A DNA stretch of 64,000 nt from an uncultured Spartobacteria bacterium (GTDB lineage Bacteria > Verrucomicrobiota > Verrucomicrobiia > Chthoniobacterales > Chthoniobacteraceae), in NCBI GenBank assembly GCA_903919125.1, contig CAIXGS010000052.1:1-64000 (forward strand), read 5' to 3'. This document shows, in pieces, positions 521 to 51,870 of the stretch; position 1 is the stretch's first letter; each line of letters opens with the position of its first letter. The notes under the pieces are model-generated. The model searched no databases and had not been told where the DNA came from. It saw only the letters and a list, made by a program, of their open reading frames with translations. Both the position numbers and the translations under genes were made by a program.

Positions 521-3500
521 TCCACTGAGGGCATTGACTGTTCCGTTTGTCAGGAACGCTAGCGCACCGTTGTTAGCGACTGCGCCAAGCGTCCGGTCGG
601 ATTCGAGAGTCAGAGTACCGGTGCTCGAGACCCCGTAGCTCAGTGTGCTGTCCACCGTCGCAGCTGAAGCGATGTTGAAGGCGCCAGTCGTATTGACGCT
701 CCCTGTTCCAAGAAGCGAGCCGCTGAAGGAACCGCCCTGAGTGCTTAGAACACTACCCAAAGCGGTCTGAAAGGTTCCCGCTTCCAGTGTGCTGACCGTA
801 ATTAGACCGTTGTTGACAAGCTCACCACTGATGACAGAGCTAAGATTGAGGGTTCCATTGACAGTCGCTGTAGCCCCATCAAACGACGTAGCGGTCGCCG
901 TGGACTGGGAAGTCACCGTGAGGTTCACGCCAGAGAGTGAGCCCATCGTCGCAGTTGATGTCGCGTTCGTGGTGGTGATCGTAAGACTTCCACCCGTCAC
1001 ATCACCCAAAGTGACACCACCCGAAAACTCGGTCACACCGGAACCTGTAAGAGTCCCCATGCTAGCAGTAGAAAGGAAGCGAAGAAGGCCGCTATTGGCT
1101 ACGTCGCCAAGCAACGCTGCGTTAGAGAACTGAGCCGTCCCTGCGTTGATCGTCAGCGCGCTGCTAGATGCGAGACTTCCTGTGATTGACAGGAAGCCGC
1201 CGTTAACCGTTGTTCCGCCTGTGTATGTGTTGACACCGGCCAATGTCAGCGAGCCCGTGCCGAGAACGATTGAGCCGTTCCCAGAAATGACTCCCGCTGC
1301 GGTCAATCCTGCCCCGTCATTGATGGTCAGGCTGTTTGCGCCCAGATCAAGAGTGCTTGCGACCGAGGAGCTGAGACTGGAAACGCTCAGGCTGTTCGCG
1401 ATACTGACCGCTGCGCTATTCGAAATTATCAGGGCTGCAGTGAGGTCCGCCCCGATGCTTGCGGATCCGCCGCTGACTTTGACGGTGCCCGCCGTGACGG
1501 CTCCATTTAAGGTAAGATTGCCGGAAGTTGTCTCAAATTTGTTCGTGGCACCCAGTGAAATAGTTCCGTTTACAGTAAGAGTCCCATTGACCGTTAGGTT
1601 CGTAGCGGTGCCGGTGATAGAGCTGGTTGAGAGGGAATCAGAAAGTACCGACACCTTGGAATCACCGGTCAATGTCAGCAACCCACTCAGGGAATTATCT
1701 CCGCTATTACTTACCAAGGCACCAGAGCCGGAAGTACCGGAAATGGATATGGCATTTGTAAGTTGGATATTGTTCCCGAGAGCAAGGGAGGCTCCGTCTG
1801 TTACGGACACGTCGCCTACCGAGAGAGCCTGGCTTCCAGTGACGAGCAATGTACCTGCGGCAAGTGTCGTATTACCGACAAAGTCACTCGCGCCACTCAG
1901 CGTCAATGCGCCTGAACCAGATTTTACAAGGGTGATTCCACCGGTGAGACTCCCACTAAAGGTGGTGTCACTGCCGAGGCCGCCCACATTCACGTTCGAC
2001 GACGTACCGATTATAACGCCAGCGCCGCTCAACGCGCCGAACGTTGAAGTCCCGGACGAGAGCGTGAAATTGCCGGCCCCCGAGAGTGTACCCACCGTCG
2101 CCGCAGCCTGGAAGGTTACAGCGCCTTCGTTCGTCAGGCTGGTCAGTGTCACTTCTGGACTAAAGACCACAGAACCACTGCCGCTTACCGCCATTGTGTT
2201 CGACGTTCCGATTGCAGTCGTTACCGACAGCGCCACGTCATTCACAGAGATTGCGCCACTGAAACCAGTCTGCGTACCGGCCAGAGTCAGGTCGCCGTTG
2301 ACGTTAAACGCGCCAGCCCCGGCGAGCGTCCCAGTAAAGGTTCCACTATAGACGTCAAGAATCCCTGAGTTCGTCACATTCCCCCCATTGAAGGTGTGCA
2401 CAGTAAGATATGAACCATTCTGCACAACTCCACCAGAGAGCGTGACGACATCCGTGGCTCCGTTCACGTTCAGTGACCCACCGGATACAGTCTGAAGAGT
2501 GTTTGCATTGCTGTTGAGGATCAACTGTCCGTTGGAAACAGTGTCACCCGTCACAGTACCATTCGCGGTCAGCAAGCCGCCGGAGAGAGTGCCCAGCGTT
2601 GTGGCGCCCGTCACATTCACAATGCCGTCGGAGATCGTGCCAACGGTTGCATCGGCTACGAAATTAGTGGTGCCGCTTCCGCTAATAGAGCCAATTGCTG
2701 CACTTGCACCGAGGAAATTGGCGTAGGCACCGGAAGAAACGATAAGATTCCCGCTGGCACTGAGTGAACCTGTCGAAGCAATCGTGAGCGAGCCGCTATT
2801 GACTGTCGTGTCGCCCGAATAGTCGTTTTGACCGGAAAGAGTCGAGATCCCAGTCGAAGTCAACGTCGAAGTCAAAGTACCGGCGCCAGTAAGGCGTGCA
2901 GAAACCGTTGCGTCAGACAGCGTGAAACCTGTCCCTGACAGGGTTCCTGAGCTTACGGTAGCGCTTGTGATGGAGACGAGAGCCACACTTTGGGTGGTGG
3001 CACCGAGATCCAGCACGGTGGACGCACCGGTTACGGTAAGATCGCCCGAAGCGAGTGAACCTCCTGAGAGGATAAGCAGCGATCCTCCAGTCACGAAGGT
3101 GGCTGCAGTTGAGTCATTGGCACCAGTGAAAGTGAGTGCGCCATCGCCGGATTTTGTGAAGTCAAAGCTTCCGCTCATCGCGCCGAGAGCCACGGAGGCA
3201 TAGGAGCCTACGCTGAGTATTGGCGCCACGGTAAGTGTCGTCGCACCGAAAGTAATCCCCTGCACCGTACTACTGGTCGCGCCGGCAGCCGCAACGACCT
3301 GAAGGTCGCTTCCTAGCGAAAGTGCTCCAAGCACCTGAGTGAGAGTGCCCCCCACAATTAGAGAGGACACACCGGAAACACCGAGAGTGTGCTGGGCCGC
3401 CATCTGGGTGGGAGCTGAAAGCGAAAGCGTCCCTCCGTTGAGAGATATGGGGTTGACGGCGTCGCCAAGAGCGAGGGAATTTGCGATCTCCAAAATGCCA

Positions 3501-6500
3501 GCGCTGATGTTGATCCCGTTAAAGACCGCTCCGGTGGAATCTCCGGCCAGCACCTGCGTGCCCGTACCAGTTTTATAAATCGCGGCGACACCATTAGCAG
3601 TCATACTCCCGCTATAGGTCACGCTGTCGGTGCCGCTCAACACGAGGTCATAGGTGTAGATGTTAATGAGGCCCTGACTTCCGCCGGCAAGTGCCCCGCC
3701 CGACAGGGACGCGACGGTGGTATCCGTGGAAAGATTGAACGTGGGGCTAGCGACGGAGGCGTCGAAGATGATTGCGTTTGAGGCACCCACTGCGGTCGCG
3801 GCCCCTATGTCGAGAGTCCCGCCCTTCAGTAGAATGCTGCCCGTGAAGGCTGTGTTGCTGCCATTGAGCGATACTGTGCCAGGGGTGGTGTCCTTGACGA
3901 CCTGCCCAGATCCCGTGAGGTCGGCGGCGTAATTGCCAGCGGACAACGTGAGGTTGCTGAAGTTAAGCGTCCCGTTCTGGATAGTCCCCCCATTAAGGAT
4001 GGCCGAGCCCACGCTTTGGACGACCCCACCCAAGTCGAGCGCGCCTGCCGTCACGTTTACTGTGCCGTCGAAGCTATTGCTGCCCCCGACCGAAAAAGAA
4101 TTGTTCGCTACGGTAAATGTCTGGGTACCGCCACCAATGTTGAGGTAAGAGCCGGTGCCGCCCGAAATCACACCGCTGTAAGTCCCGCCACCTGAAAGAG
4201 TGAGGCTACTCGAGATCACAGTCAACCCGCTCCCGCTCAAGCTTGTAATACTGGTCGTGCCGCTGGTCGCGCTATACAACAGCGTGCCACCGTTGCTTAC
4301 AGCGCCGAATGATCCATCTGCCGCAGAGAAAACTGCTGAACCCGAGGTGACGGTCAAGGAGTTGTTCCCTGCAAGCGCACTGTTAATTGTCAACTGACCG
4401 CTGCTCACGTTCAGTGCGCCGCTGTAGCCGCTCAGCGTGCTGCTGGATGCCGCAGTTAACACCCCACTCGAGTACAACGACCCGGCTCCCGTCAAGGTGC
4501 CGACAAAAGTACCATTGGTAACATTCAGAGTGCCATCATTAGTGATGTCTGCCCCATTGAGCGTGGTGATCGCTGCAGATACCCCGGATCCCAACACAAG
4601 GCTTCCAAGCGACGATGTTCCAATCGCGTTTCCGTCACCGCTCAGCGTCAATGAACCGCCGCTCAGCGTCGTCAAGTACGCCGTACCCGCACTCATATTC
4701 ACTGTCCCCGAAGTCAAAGTCGTCAACAAGAGGTTGGCCCCATTGTCAAAACTCGTTATGCCAGCGCCGCTCAAAGCTCCAATGGCGACAGAACCGCTGC
4801 TCGCACTGAAGGCTAGGCTCCCATCGTTGTTCACGTTTCCAAGCGAACCCGCCGAGGTCGCAGTCGTTCCAAACGTCGCAGAGAACGTCGCCGAACCTCC
4901 AGAGGAAATGTTCAGCCCGTTACCGCCGCTTAGCAGCGCATCCACCGTCAGAGTCCCCGTGCCCACGTTCACCGTTCCGCCGTAGCCGCTCAACGAACCC
5001 GTCGCGTCCAAAGTCAACGACGCCGCGCTGCTCAAGCTCAACGAGCCCACGCCCGTCAACGCCCCGGTGAAGACCCCGCCGCCAGTCGTGAACGCGCTGT
5101 TTGCCACCAACGTCCCACCCGTGAGCGTTCCGATAGTCAGCGTCCCGTTGTTGGTCAACAATCCGGCATTCAGAGAGCCTGTCAGTGTGAACGAACCGGA
5201 GTTCGTCGCGCTGCCACTGTTGAATGCGCCGAGCGTCGCAGTTCCGCTATTGCTGATTGAGCCACCACTCAAAGTCGCAACCGTTAAGTTCCCCGTGTTC
5301 GTTGCCGCGCCGCCGCTGAGGGTCGTCACGGTGGCTATGCCACTGTTGGAAAGTGTACCCGTCGAGGAAAGCGTAGTGATCGTCGCAGCACCCGCGTTGG
5401 TCAAAAGCCCAGCCGATTGAGTCGTGGTCGTCAAAGAGCCCGTGCTATTGTTCACAACCGCACCGCCACTCAGAGTCGTCAACGTCAACGTGCCGCTGTT
5501 GGCAACTGCGCCGCCGCTGACCGTGGTCACCGCCGCACTCGCGACGGAAGCCAAGGACAACGTACCGCCACTTTGCGTGGTCAACGCCGTAGAACCGGCG
5601 CCGGATAACCTCAGAGAACCGCCGCCCAAAGTGGTCACGGCGTTCGTTGTCGCGCCGCTTAGTGTGATCGAGCCGTCGTTAATTGTTGTGAGATAGGCGG
5701 AACCCGCTACCACCACCGTGCCGCTGTTGATGGTTCCCACATTCGCCACACCCGAGAAATTCGTGACGCCCGTAGCACCAGTAATTGACGTCGCCGTGGA
5801 AGATCCACTTGTCGCGAGGAAGTTGAGGATGCCGCCGTTGTTGACGATAGAGTCGAGCGTATTTGCGTTGGTCACATTGACCGTCGCGCCGGAGGAAAGG
5901 GTCAAGTCGTTGGTGTCTCCGAAGTAACCGGTCACGTTTAATTTACCGGCCGTGACAAAGGTGGTTCCTCCATTGGACAAGGAGCCAGAAATCACCAAAG
6001 TCCCCGCACCAGATTTGGTGAAGTCGTAAGAAGATGCGCCGTCCGTGACGGTTCCCCCAACAGTGAGGCTGCCTGCAGCAACATTCAAAGTGATGCTGTT
6101 CATCAAGTAAGCAGAACTCGCGCTGAGCGTGCCACTGTTCGTCCCCACGAACCCGAAACTTCCCGCCCACACGGACGCATTGCTCACAGTCAACCCAGAG
6201 GAGGCAAAGTCCAGAGAACCGCCGTTGATCGTCAACGAGCCGCTGCCCAACGCAGAGGCGTTCCCGATATTTAACAGACCCGCCGCCAGAGTACCTGACG
6301 TGAATGTGTTTGCGCCGCTCAAAGTCAGCGCACCCGCCCCAGACTTGGTCAAATCACCTCCCGAGACGACCGAACTCACGGCTAAAGTGCCAGCGGAAAC
6401 GTTCAAGGTACTGCCGCTTGTGTCGAGATTGAGCGTGCCGCCCGTGATGGAGCCGCTGGAAGTGGATGTCACCTGTTTCCCGGAGGAGAGCGTGAGCTCG

Positions 6501-48401: not shown

Positions 48402-48698
48402 TCATTTTCTGAGCTTTGCCAAATATTTCTCCGGATTCGCGTGAAATTTTCGCACGCAGGGCCCGCAGCAAAAGCGCAATTCCTGTCCGTTGTAGACCTC
48501 CACACGGGTGTCTCCCATGGAGTCCAAATCATTTCCAGTCACCAAGCAAACTTTGAGTGGATAGGGTGTTACGCTAGAGGTAGTTTTCGATGTGGCACAG
48601 GCTCCTAAAAGCAGCGTGAGGCAGGTTACACCCAAGCAACGGGTGAGTCTGTGTAGAGAAGGTTGAGTGGAGAGCTTGGGATTCGTGATCAGGTTCAT
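48402..48698 (-). CDS. YHS/TRASH-like metal-binding lipoprotein
   Basis: This 98-residue lipoprotein (lipobox LLGAC, Cys34) has a small metal-binding domain: KVCLVTGNDL with Cys51, RFCCGPCVRKF with Cys77, Cys78 and Cys81, and the family ending FHANPEKYLAKL. Such YHS/TRASH modules bind Cu or Zn. It lies next to the multicopper oxidase on the same strand, so copper sensing or scavenging in the periplasm is likely. Confidence 0.75.
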   Translation of the reverse strand: MNLITNPKLSTQPSLHRLTRCLGVTCLTLLLGACATSKTTSSVTPYPLKVCLVTGNDLDSMGDTRVEVYNGQELRFCCGPCVRKFHANPEKYLAKLRK

Positions 48699-48749: not shown

Positions 48750-50957
48750 TCAAAATCGAAAGGACAAACCGGCGCCAAAGCCGTAGTCAGTGTGGAACGC
48801 GGCGCTCAGAGCGACCGCTTTAGAGAGGGTGTAGTCGGCACGGACGGCCTCCTGCCAACGCTGGCGAGTGTCGTACTGGCCTCGCACCTGGACGCTCAAT
48901 CGGGAGGTTAGCTGAAAATCTTTACTGAGCATGATACGGACCGCCCCCTTGGCATCCACCGTGGCCATCCCCATTACCAAATAGGGGAGACGATACCACC
49001 CGCCAGCCAAAGGCCGATTGCCGCCGGGATGCATATTACTCAAACGCATCCCACCCACTACACCAAGATTGCTGCTGAGCACGTGTTCCCCCAGCGCATC
49101 CACTTCATACTCAGTGAGTCCGTCGGTGTGCCGCCAGCCCAGCTCCCATGGCACCAGCAAGCTGTTGCGCCCCTGCTGAATCCGCGCCTGCCCACTGGAC
49201 ATATTAGAAAGCGCGTTGAAATCTGCAAACGCATAGCGCATGTCCATCCCGTGTTCGCCCATCATCGGCTTCTCACTCGCCGGACCATAATGCATAACGC
49301 ACCCCATCCCCTCCATCATGTGATACAGCACATGGCAATGAAACAACCAGTCGCCCTCCTCGTTGGCCTCAAATTCAATCACCCGACGACTCATGGGCGG
49401 CACGTCTACAGTGTGCTTGAGCGGCGAGTAATCGCCCTGCCCATTTAGCAACCGGAAGAAGTGCCCGTGAAGATGCATCGGGTGGTGCATCATGGTGTCG
49501 TTAATTAACTCCAAGCGAAGCACCTCACCGCGTTTAACCGGGATAGTGCTCTCCTCGCTCATCGTTTTCTGGTTCAAGGACCAAACGTATCGCTGCATAT
49601 CGCCAGTCAGATGCAGCGCCAGCGTGCGCCGAGGCAGTGACTCTGCCACCGCGGTAGACTGCAAAGCACGCAGTTGGCGATAGGGCGGAAGTGGCCGCTC
49701 CATACACGTCTTACAAATCCCGGCCTGTCCGCCCGCCCCTCTTGAGTGCGCACCCGAGCTAGCCGACTTTTCTTCAAGCGGTTGCGCAAGGTCGCCCTCC
49801 TCCAAAGCCGGCATCAACACCTCGTCCATGTCATACAGATTTGGGCGCGGCACGGCAGGCGCCTCATGCAAAGGACCGCTTCCCACCAAAGCAGACGCGG
49901 AGCCCGTCCCGTCGTGCGCCGTCGCCCTAATCTCCCAGCTTCCAGTAGGCGGGACTTTCACCAAAACATCGTACGTTTCCGCTATCCCGATCAGCAGGCG
50001 CTTAACGCCAATCGGCTCCACTGCAAGGCCATCTGCGGCAACAATCGTTAAGGGGCCTGTCGCGGATTCCACATAAAAGTAGCTGGAGGCGGAGGCGTTG
50101 ATGACACGCAGCCGGATCGTCTCCCCCGGTTTTCCCTCCACGTGAAAGCGGCGCTGACCATTGACCAGGAATGCGTCGTAAGCTACGTCCGCCACATCCA
50201 TTGGGGGAAGGCGCGCACCTTCCCGCTTCACATACTGTCCCAAAAAGCCCGCGCGGACTGCTCCAAGCAGCGACTGGGGCGCCCCTTTTTGGATCGAATA
50301 CCAGTTCGATCCGCGCTTCAAAGTGCGCAGCACCTCCTCCGGACTTTCATTAGTCCAATCATTCAACACCACCACCTGATCGCGGTCTGAGTGGAAGGTA
50401 TCCGGTTTGCGAGGCAGCACGACGATGGAGCCCAAAACCCCGCGTTGTTCCTGCATCCCGGTATGGGAATGGTACCAGTACGTTCCACTTTGCCGCACCG
50501 GGAACTCGTAAGTAAACGTTCCTCCAGGCGGCACAGGAGGCGTGGTCAAATGCGGCACTCCGTCCTGATCGTTGGGGAGGAGCAGCCCGTGCCAGTGGAG
50601 GGACGTCTCATCGTGCGTCAGACTGTTGTGAAGGCGAATGCGCGCCACATCACCTTCGTTAAACCGCAGGGTGGGGCCGGGAAATTCGCCGTTGATTGTG
50701 AGAACGCGCACCGACTTGCCTGCGGGGGAGAGCACCTGCTCCGCAACCTCGAGGTCGTATTCCACCACGCGACCAGTCGCCTGCAATGCTCGGCGGCCAG
50801 TCGGGGCGGGGGTGTGCGAATCAGCGGAATTGCGACGCTCCGACTTCGCGGACATCGCAGCAGGTTCGTGCGCTAGTCCAGAGACGGTTAAGGAACTGAA
50901 CAGCATTAAACTGAACAGGAAGCCTGTTAGAGAATGGGTGAAAAAGAAGTAGTTCAT
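48750..50957 (-). CDS. Multicopper oxidase (CopA-like) fused to a C-terminal beta-rich domain
   Basis: This protein of about 735 residues oxidises Cu(I) or phenolics in the periplasm. The signal peptide is TGFLFSLMLFSSLTVSGLA. All four copper-binding motifs are visible: HWHGLLLP (121-124), WYHSHTG (163-165), HPMHLHGHF (about 490) and HCHVLYHMMEGM (about 540). After about residue 555 comes a 180-residue segment absent from ordinary CopA. It is rich in alternating hydrophobic/polar strands (RLSVQVRGQYDTRQ; AVALSAAFHTDYGFG) and ends in Phe, as outer-membrane barrels do. This may be a CopA-CopB fusion. The ATG at 50957 is preferred; the frame continues upstream. Confidence 0.85.
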   Translation of the reverse strand: MNYFFFTHSLTGFLFSLMLFSSLTVSGLAHEPAAMSAKSERRNSADSHTPAPTGRRALQATGRVVEYDLEVAEQVLSPAGKSVRVLTINGEFPGPTLRFNEGDVARIRLHNSLTHDETSLHWHGLLLPNDQDGVPHLTTPPVPPGGTFTYEFPVRQSGTYWYHSHTGMQEQRGVLGSIVVLPRKPDTFHSDRDQVVVLNDWTNESPEEVLRTLKRGSNWYSIQKGAPQSLLGAVRAGFLGQYVKREGARLPPMDVADVAYDAFLVNGQRRFHVEGKPGETIRLRVINASASSYFYVESATGPLTIVAADGLAVEPIGVKRLLIGIAETYDVLVKVPPTGSWEIRATAHDGTGSASALVGSGPLHEAPAVPRPNLYDMDEVLMPALEEGDLAQPLEEKSASSGAHSRGAGGQAGICKTCMERPLPPYRQLRALQSTAVAESLPRRTLALHLTGDMQRYVWSLNQKTMSEESTIPVKRGEVLRLELINDTMMHHPMHLHGHFFRLLNGQGDYSPLKHTVDVPPMSRRVIEFEANEEGDWLFHCHVLYHMMEGMGCVMHYGPASEKPMMGEHGMDMRYAFADFNALSNMSSGQARIQQGRNSLLVPWELGWRHTDGLTEYEVDALGEHVLSSNLGVVGGMRLSNMHPGGNRPLAGGWYRLPYLVMGMATVDAKGAVRIMLSKDFQLTSRLSVQVRGQYDTRQRWQEAVRADYTLSKAVALSAAFHTDYGFGAGLSFRF

Positions 50958-51120: not shown

Positions 51121-51870
51121 TCAGAGTAAAAAACTGCAATGCAACACCTCAACCGCCTCCCCCACGACCCGATGAACCACACGGTACGCTCCCCTTTGGG
51201 CTCGCACACTCGCCAAGATTCGGGCTTCGCCGACCAACTGCGGATCCCAGCAGCGCCGCGTGAATCCCGGTTCCATCCGAAAGGTCGTCCAAGAAAGTTC
51301 AGGCACCATCCCGCCTGAAGGCGCCGAAGCAGGCGGCACAACGGGTTCCAATGTTGGTAAATCCACTTTTATGACACAACAGCAAGCGGCACTTTCCCCT
51401 TGAAGCCCCACCTCCGACATTACGCCAATCCCTTCGATGCGTTGCAAAGCCCCTTCAAAAGCTTCGCGGGCTTCTGGTTGACGGCGACAACACGACAAAC
51501 CGCACTCACTCAAAACTGGCCTCGCCTCCTCAAGAGCAAGCACAGCACAACAAGAGAGCGCAGGCCGAGTGATCTCACGTACCCTCCCGTCGCAATGACC
51601 CTGAGCGTGAAAACCACCCACGCCACCTCGGGCCCCCAGGGAGTCTAGATTCCACTGCGCGACAGAAGCTCCAAAATCAGTCTCCTTTTTGTCGGGAGCC
51701 TCGACCACCGCGTGCGCTTCCGCTCCTTTGTATGATGTCGTCCGCAACCCTTCCTGCAACCCTTCAGCGTGCACTCCGTGGGAAAAAGCCGGTTGCCAAG
51801 CCCCTTGAAGCAAAAGCAACAAGAGGGCCCACGTTTTGAAAAGTCGCAAGAGTACGGGTGGTGTTCCCAT
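51121..51870 (-). CDS. Exported cysteine-rich protein of unknown function
   Basis: This 249-residue protein starts with a signal sequence (LFKTWALLLLLLQGAWQPAFS). The mature part has 11 cysteines in clusters (Cys107-108, Cys123, Cys127-128, Cys163-165, Cys207 and Cys245) with several His. The clustering next to copper genes suggests metal binding. I do not recognise the family. It lies 163 bases upstream of the multicopper oxidase and has the same orientation. Confidence 0.6.
   Translation of the reverse strand: MGTPPVLLRLFKTWALLLLLLQGAWQPAFSHGVHAEGLQEGLRTTSYKGAEAHAVVEAPDKKETDFGASVAQWNLDSLGARGGVGGFHAQGHCDGRVREITRPALSCCAVLALEEARPVLSECGLSCCRRQPEAREAFEGALQRIEGIGVMSEVGLQGESAACCCVIKVDLPTLEPVVPPASAPSGGMVPELSWTTFRMEPGFTRRCWDPQLVGEARILASVRAQRGAYRVVHRVVGEAVEVLHCSFLL

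Follow-up and report, generated by a model that had tools for sequence, protein, structure and literature searches.

The 64,000-nucleotide window analysed here contains an open reading frame on the minus strand (complement 48750-50957, read from 50957 to 48750) that encodes a protein of 735 residues, a multicopper oxidase followed by a predicted barrel. The start Met of this fused protein is shared with a same-genus relative at 89% identity. The gene is the second of three in the same direction, preceded by a gene for a Cys-rich secreted protein and followed by one for a YHS/TRASH-like lipoprotein. The locus comprises the following features.

51121..51870, minus strand: upstream secreted Cys-rich protein, outside any Pfam or NCBIfam family
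50871..50957, minus strand: signal peptide, residues 1-29, Sec-like, without a twin arginine; cleavage placed by eye after SGLA
49284..50777, minus strand: multicopper oxidase part, residues 61-558, three cupredoxin-type domains (Pfam and Foldseek)
50586..50597, minus strand: copper motif 1, HWHG, residues 121-124, invariant in the 15- and 45-row alignments
50463..50474, minus strand: copper motif 2, YHSH, residues 162-165 (motif pattern)
49464..49484, minus strand: copper motif 3, HPMHLHG, residues 492-498 (motif pattern; His invariant in the alignment)
49305..49340, minus strand: copper motif 4, HCHVLYHMMEGM, residues 540-551 (motif pattern; key residues invariant in the alignment)
49239..49304, minus strand: oxidase-barrel junction, residues 552-573, between the last copper ligand Met551 and the barrel, containing GEHGMDM
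48753..49238, minus strand: predicted CopB/PcoB-like 12-strand beta-barrel, residues 574-735, last residue Phe (AlphaFold2, Foldseek, VIA-align, hhalign)
48402..48698, minus strand: downstream small lipoprotein with a YHS/TRASH-like metal-binding signature, 51 nt after the oxidase gene

The oxidase part is assigned by domain content, motifs and fold alike. The Pfam families PF07732 (Cu-oxidase_3), PF00394 (Cu-oxidase) and PF07731 (Cu-oxidase_2) match residues 71-558 above their cut-offs, and a Foldseek comparison of the full-length model with solved structures finds matches to ascorbate oxidase, Fet3p and laccases, the lowest E being 5.0e-40. The four copper motifs mentioned by an earlier note on this DNA are all present, beginning at residues 121, 162, 492 and 540; the last one supplies the Cys, His and Met of the type 1 copper site. 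The protein thus combines the three cupredoxin-type domains and four copper motifs that characterize multicopper oxidases. Of the best 80 of 588 relatives, 76 have all four motifs under a strict pattern. TIGR01480 (CopA/PcoA) is the best-scoring NCBIfam model for the oxidase, yet its score of 405.7 bits lies below the cut-off of 478.95. The full-length alignment used 45 of the 81 available rows, and the full-length model (pTM 0.85) again has 12 strands in the tail. The junction of 22 residues is at the lower end of the range of 22-66 residues (median 30) across 72 relatives.

The tail is, as a high-confidence prediction, a 12-strand outer-membrane barrel of the PcoB fold. AlphaFold2 was run on an alignment of 73 tails (A3), those of the window protein and 72 relatives, which omits 8 of the 80 named tails (L105-L108, L116, L118, L121 and L122); the model has 12 antiparallel strands and a mean pLDDT of 94.6. 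Its top match is the PcoB structure 7PGE, both in Foldseek (E 4.4e-6) and in VIA-align (Z 16.4, rmsd 3.6, 161 of 172 residues), where the second match, at 14.4, is the phospholipase OmpLA, a protein that PcoB itself is described as resembling (PMC9210255). Charged residues in the predicted strands are segregated, occupying 19 of 59 lumen-facing positions (D, E, K, R and H) and 3 of 58 lipid-facing positions (D, E, K and R; His uncounted). The last residue is aromatic in all 73 tails (35 Phe, 37 Tyr and one Trp). The even strand number, the aromatic last residue and the combination of a charged lumen with a hydrophobic outside argue for an outer-membrane location. The earlier note had described about 180 residues of stranded tail with a C-terminal Phe, a description that the model bears out, and had proposed structure prediction as a check. 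The prediction returned a barrel; the extra cupredoxin and the disordered tail named there as the refuting outcomes are ruled out by the 12 predicted strands and by PcoB as the top structural match. A reading of the tail as disordered, as a soluble beta domain or as one more cupredoxin could draw on the window tail taken alone, which has only weak sub-threshold Pfam matches, to PLipase_C_C and TamB; given the confidence of the predicted barrel, the PcoB match, the charge segregation and the aromatic C-terminus, we attach practically no probability to such a reading.

Kinship with CopB emerges at the level of the family. Direct scans of the approximately 180 C-terminal residues of the window protein gave no Pfam domain and no NCBIfam name, and PF05275 (CopB) was absent from the window tail in Pfam scans at E up to 1 and up to 0.1; nor did the window's own genome have a match to it. 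The search for PF05275 similarity that had been suggested was therefore successful for the relatives but not for the window's own tail: 20 of the 73 tails match the family at E up to 0.1 (best 1.1e-7). CopB is the most frequent family in this Pfam scan, and 18 of the 73 tails match a general outer-membrane barrel family. Comparison of the tail alignment with that of eight CopB proteins (A5) in hhalign scores 96.7%, with E 3.6e-10 across 120 columns. Against structures, the tail profile reaches 7PGE with E 1.2e-4, narrowly behind a designed 12-strand barrel at 3.9e-5, and general barrel similarity could add to the profile scores against CopB. In a survey of Verrucomicrobiota, the same profile picks out the separate CopB gene of one genome (G242) at E 3.7e-8. 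Judged by the predicted fold and the profile comparisons, the reading of the protein as CopA and CopB in one chain, which the earlier note had put forward, holds for fold and ancestry.

The fusion is widespread. A scan of species genomes yielded 588 confirmed relatives, of which the best 80 were kept; the barrel tail is present in all 80, a conservation that excludes a chance feature. L047 and L048, the top matches among the named relatives, are both MAGs of Chthoniobacteraceae. By record titles, about ten phyla are represented among the best 80 of 588, including Verrucomicrobiota, Bacteroidota, Balneolota, Nitrospirota and Planctomycetota, with Acidobacteriota, Bdellovibrionota, Thermodesulfobacteriota, Pseudomonadota and a Delongbacteria MAG as further groups; many of the fused rows are MAGs, and some phylum labels may be binning errors, as for L096 and L098, which are placed among Flavobacteriaceae. 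The fusion is encoded in a single frame in each of these 80 relatives, in 11 other loci of the window's genus and family with complete genes and in finished plasmids. This rules out the joining of two genes by a frameshift or an assembly error, and the likelihood of such an artefact is negligible. Of 2946 plasmid records, 25 have a coverage of at least 80% of a fused query; the 25 top records belong to Bacteroidota genera and Ilyobacter polytropus. The records below these have a coverage of about 70% and names mostly of the classical type, and no Legionella fusion was seen among the 40 listed of 2946.

A set of 147 genomes, made up of the window's own and its relatives, has 12 places at which the match extends to residue 735. 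The fused form occurs in 17 of 194 Verrucomicrobiota genomes and a separate CopB in 5, with no genome carrying both (an 18th tail match, in G242, is that genome's separate CopB); this exclusion alone proves nothing, because fewer than one genome with both would be expected by chance. A separate CopB accompanies the fusion in one of 79 fusion genomes (G341, the genome of L053, at C10:634-1251). Two other PF05275 matches in fusion genomes sit in frames that equal the fused genes of the same genomes in length. One genome, G229, has two copies of the tail, C65:1673-2239 and C31:4883-5460, the latter split into two overlapping matches in different frames and perhaps representing a broken duplicate.

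In a tree of the oxidase part (99 rows, 538 columns), a branch with support 98 sets apart 80 fused rows, and another, with support 99, sets apart 16 classical CopA rows; three rows serve as the outgroup. The fused oxidases fall outside the classical CopA group. This is a quick tree with SH-aLRT support only; it left out 9 of the 80 named loci (near-identical sequences and L092) and drew on the window protein and, from the 14 further fused proteins in alignment A1, on 9. The separation of fused and classical rows is partly a product of sampling, since the two sets were fetched by different queries: the fused set by similarity to the window family, the classical set by similarity to Alteromonas CopA or by a neighbouring CopB. 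With this caveat, a single old fusion that spread later would fit the tree.

Fused and classical proteins differ in their export signals. The N-terminus of the window protein has a hydrophobic core without RR ahead of it, and residues 1-59 have low pLDDT in the full-length model. Of 78 assessed fused proteins, one has a twin arginine in the stretch from the nearest Met to the hydrophobic core (L056; L065 and L092 were not assessable, and L011 lies outside the signal counts), whereas 13 of 15 classical CopA proteins carry RR near the N-terminus, the exceptions being L135 of Acinetobacter and L176 of Ruegeria. In a looser test, 3 of 102 proteins are Tat-like, namely L054, whose RR precedes its presumed start Met, and two proteins without the fusion, L015 and L016. 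The frame of L054 (3669-6998, Planctomycetota) extends about 450 residues upstream of the oxidase, an extension that is probably non-coding or an extra domain. The Tat pathway exports folded proteins, and barrels reach the outer membrane unfolded via Sec. If the barrel needs Sec export, the lack of a twin arginine is what one would expect in fused proteins.

The gene neighbourhood points to metal handling. The downstream lipoprotein matches PF04945 at E 5e-6, a match that narrowly misses the Pfam cut-off, and PF24273 at E 9e-4. It lies beside the fused gene in 10 of 11 loci of the genus and family, the window included (the miss is L167), and is likely to be a metal-binding partner of the fused protein. 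The upstream Cys-rich protein has no Pfam or NCBIfam match; Cys-rich ORFs with an LHC-like end lie upstream of the fused gene in four of five same-genus loci compared, and the protein is possibly a copper-binding or leader protein. A scan of 85 of the 133 flanking ORFs at 23 loci found P-type ATPases (6), DUF3347 (5), YHS (5), HMA (3) and also heavy-metal-binding domains. Fused copies on plasmids reside in copper clusters, adjoined by copper ATPases, HMA proteins, DUF305 and four-helix copper-binding proteins.

The earlier note was not aware of any description of such a fusion; descriptions do exist, and the form is common among the relatives. A fused PcoA-PcoB was reported in five Legionella species in 2012 (PMC3548706) and, like the window protein, joins an oxidase of the PcoA type to an outer-membrane protein of the PcoB type in one chain; the available text of that gammaproteobacterial survey gives it one sentence, without structure, mechanism or domain order. 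The protein G2EDV6 of Bizionia argentinensis is described as a multicopper oxidase with a porin-like C-terminus, residues 611-809, bearing some similarity to PcoB (PMC11213822, 2024). It shares with the window protein three cupredoxin-type domains, a signal peptide, the oxidase in first place and the PcoB-like end, but comes from Bacteroidota and is called a putative periplasmic oxidase, with no cross-phylum comparison in the accessible part of the account. With an oxidase and a PcoB-like barrel in one chain, the window protein is itself a fused PcoA-PcoB, a well-supported member of an architecture that has already been noticed and is widespread. No dedicated account of the oxidase-barrel fusion was found in the open-licence PMC literature; the grouping of the fused proteins apart from classical CopA over many phyla and the switch from a Tat-type to a Sec-type signal seem to have been little explored so far. 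The separate PcoA/CopA and PcoB/CopB of Escherichia coli, Pseudomonas and Caulobacter have the same two parts in the same order, but are encoded by separate genes, often overlapping or abutting, and form two proteins instead of one. Most PcoB proteins have a disordered N-terminus, 109 residues long in Caulobacter according to PMC12509749, in place of which the fused protein has its short junction.

Taken together, the protein is probably a one-polypeptide PcoA-PcoB (CopA-CopB), a Sec-exported, barrel-anchored Cu(I) oxidase positioned under an outer-membrane barrel that offers a possible path for Cu(II). Sec would export the chain unfolded, so that the oxidase would have to load copper in the periplasm. 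The C-terminal barrel would then enter the outer membrane; since its strand number is even, both ends would be periplasmic, and the link of about 22 residues to the first strand would keep the oxidase directly below the barrel mouth. From the model we strongly infer anchoring of the oxidase at the outer membrane by the barrel. We also infer oxidation of Cu(I) to Cu(II) with oxygen, which would lessen copper toxicity. Besides anchoring the oxidase, the barrel may let Cu(II) cross the outer membrane, a role put forward for PcoB; both conduction and its direction are argued by analogy. How PcoA and PcoB cooperate and in which direction PcoB moves copper are unsettled in print: PcoB conducts Cu(II) in liposomes and is argued to be an importer (PMC9210255), whereas work on Caulobacter PcoAB favours efflux and suggests that the disordered N-terminus of PcoB may dock PcoA (PMC12509749). 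By analogy, the fused protein is this docking made covalent. Besides this dispute over direction, points that count against the CopA-CopB reading are the lack of PF05275 in the window tail, the sub-cut-off TIGR01480 score, the pore pairs and the balanced lumen.

The last two of these points bear on whether the barrel might serve as an anchor only, conducting no copper and leaving detoxification to oxidation alone. The metal-binding pairs described for PcoB, D97-E207 and E130-E223 (PMC9210255), are not clearly kept in the fused barrel: in an HMM alignment read by eye, a mapping at sequence level only, E207 aligns with D680, acidic in 66% of tails, and E223 with a Gln in the window tail. The lumen, with 10 acidic and 9 basic residues, is not strikingly electronegative, and the barrel is shorter than that of PcoB (162 residues against 198 modelled). 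On the other hand, acidic residues facing the lumen are strongly kept over the 73 tails at positions 618 (99%) and 620 (90%), and a lipid would be a simpler anchor that should need no conserved lumen. A purely anchoring role appears unlikely, though it deserves serious consideration.

The barrel could also be put to use in a conduit of porin and oxidase that serves metal outside the cell, Fe(II) for example, or carries electrons outward, which would make the protein a multicopper counterpart of Cyc2. Multicopper oxidases hand electrons to oxygen on the same protein and hence need no conduit, and the gene neighbours point to copper handling; we regard this use as highly improbable. It finds a precedent in the proposal that PcoAB acts as an Fe(II) porin-oxidase system in some iron oxidisers, although the same source leaves metal efflux open (PMC5566968). 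The likeness to Cyc2, a fused porin-cytochrome, lies in a redox domain N-terminal to an outer-membrane barrel; Cyc2 differs in its haem domain and its role in iron oxidation, and the comparison is one of architecture, without a claim of sequence kinship (PMC5566968).

Under the preferred reading as a fused PcoA-PcoB, a more specific and rather doubtful version would make the protein a redox-driven exporter, in which Cu(II) made at the barrel mouth enters the lumen and the reduction of oxygen drives net efflux. If so, outer-membrane copper efflux would be driven by neither ATP nor a proton gradient, and the covalent link would fix a transfer that may be transient between PcoA and PcoB. That the fusion has been kept as a single group in about ten phyla argues strongly, if circumstantially, for a one-to-one partnership of the two parts at contact distance, and the lack of a twin arginine in the fused form suggests an export constraint on proteins ending in an outer-membrane barrel. 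The fused gene is a natural tool for the study of copper resistance, as oxidation and channel can be disabled separately. Among the separate genes, a plasmid of Acinetobacter schindleri (L135) carries a Sec-type CopA of the classical group at 849-2591 and CopB at 2578-3567, the two genes overlapping by 14 nt.
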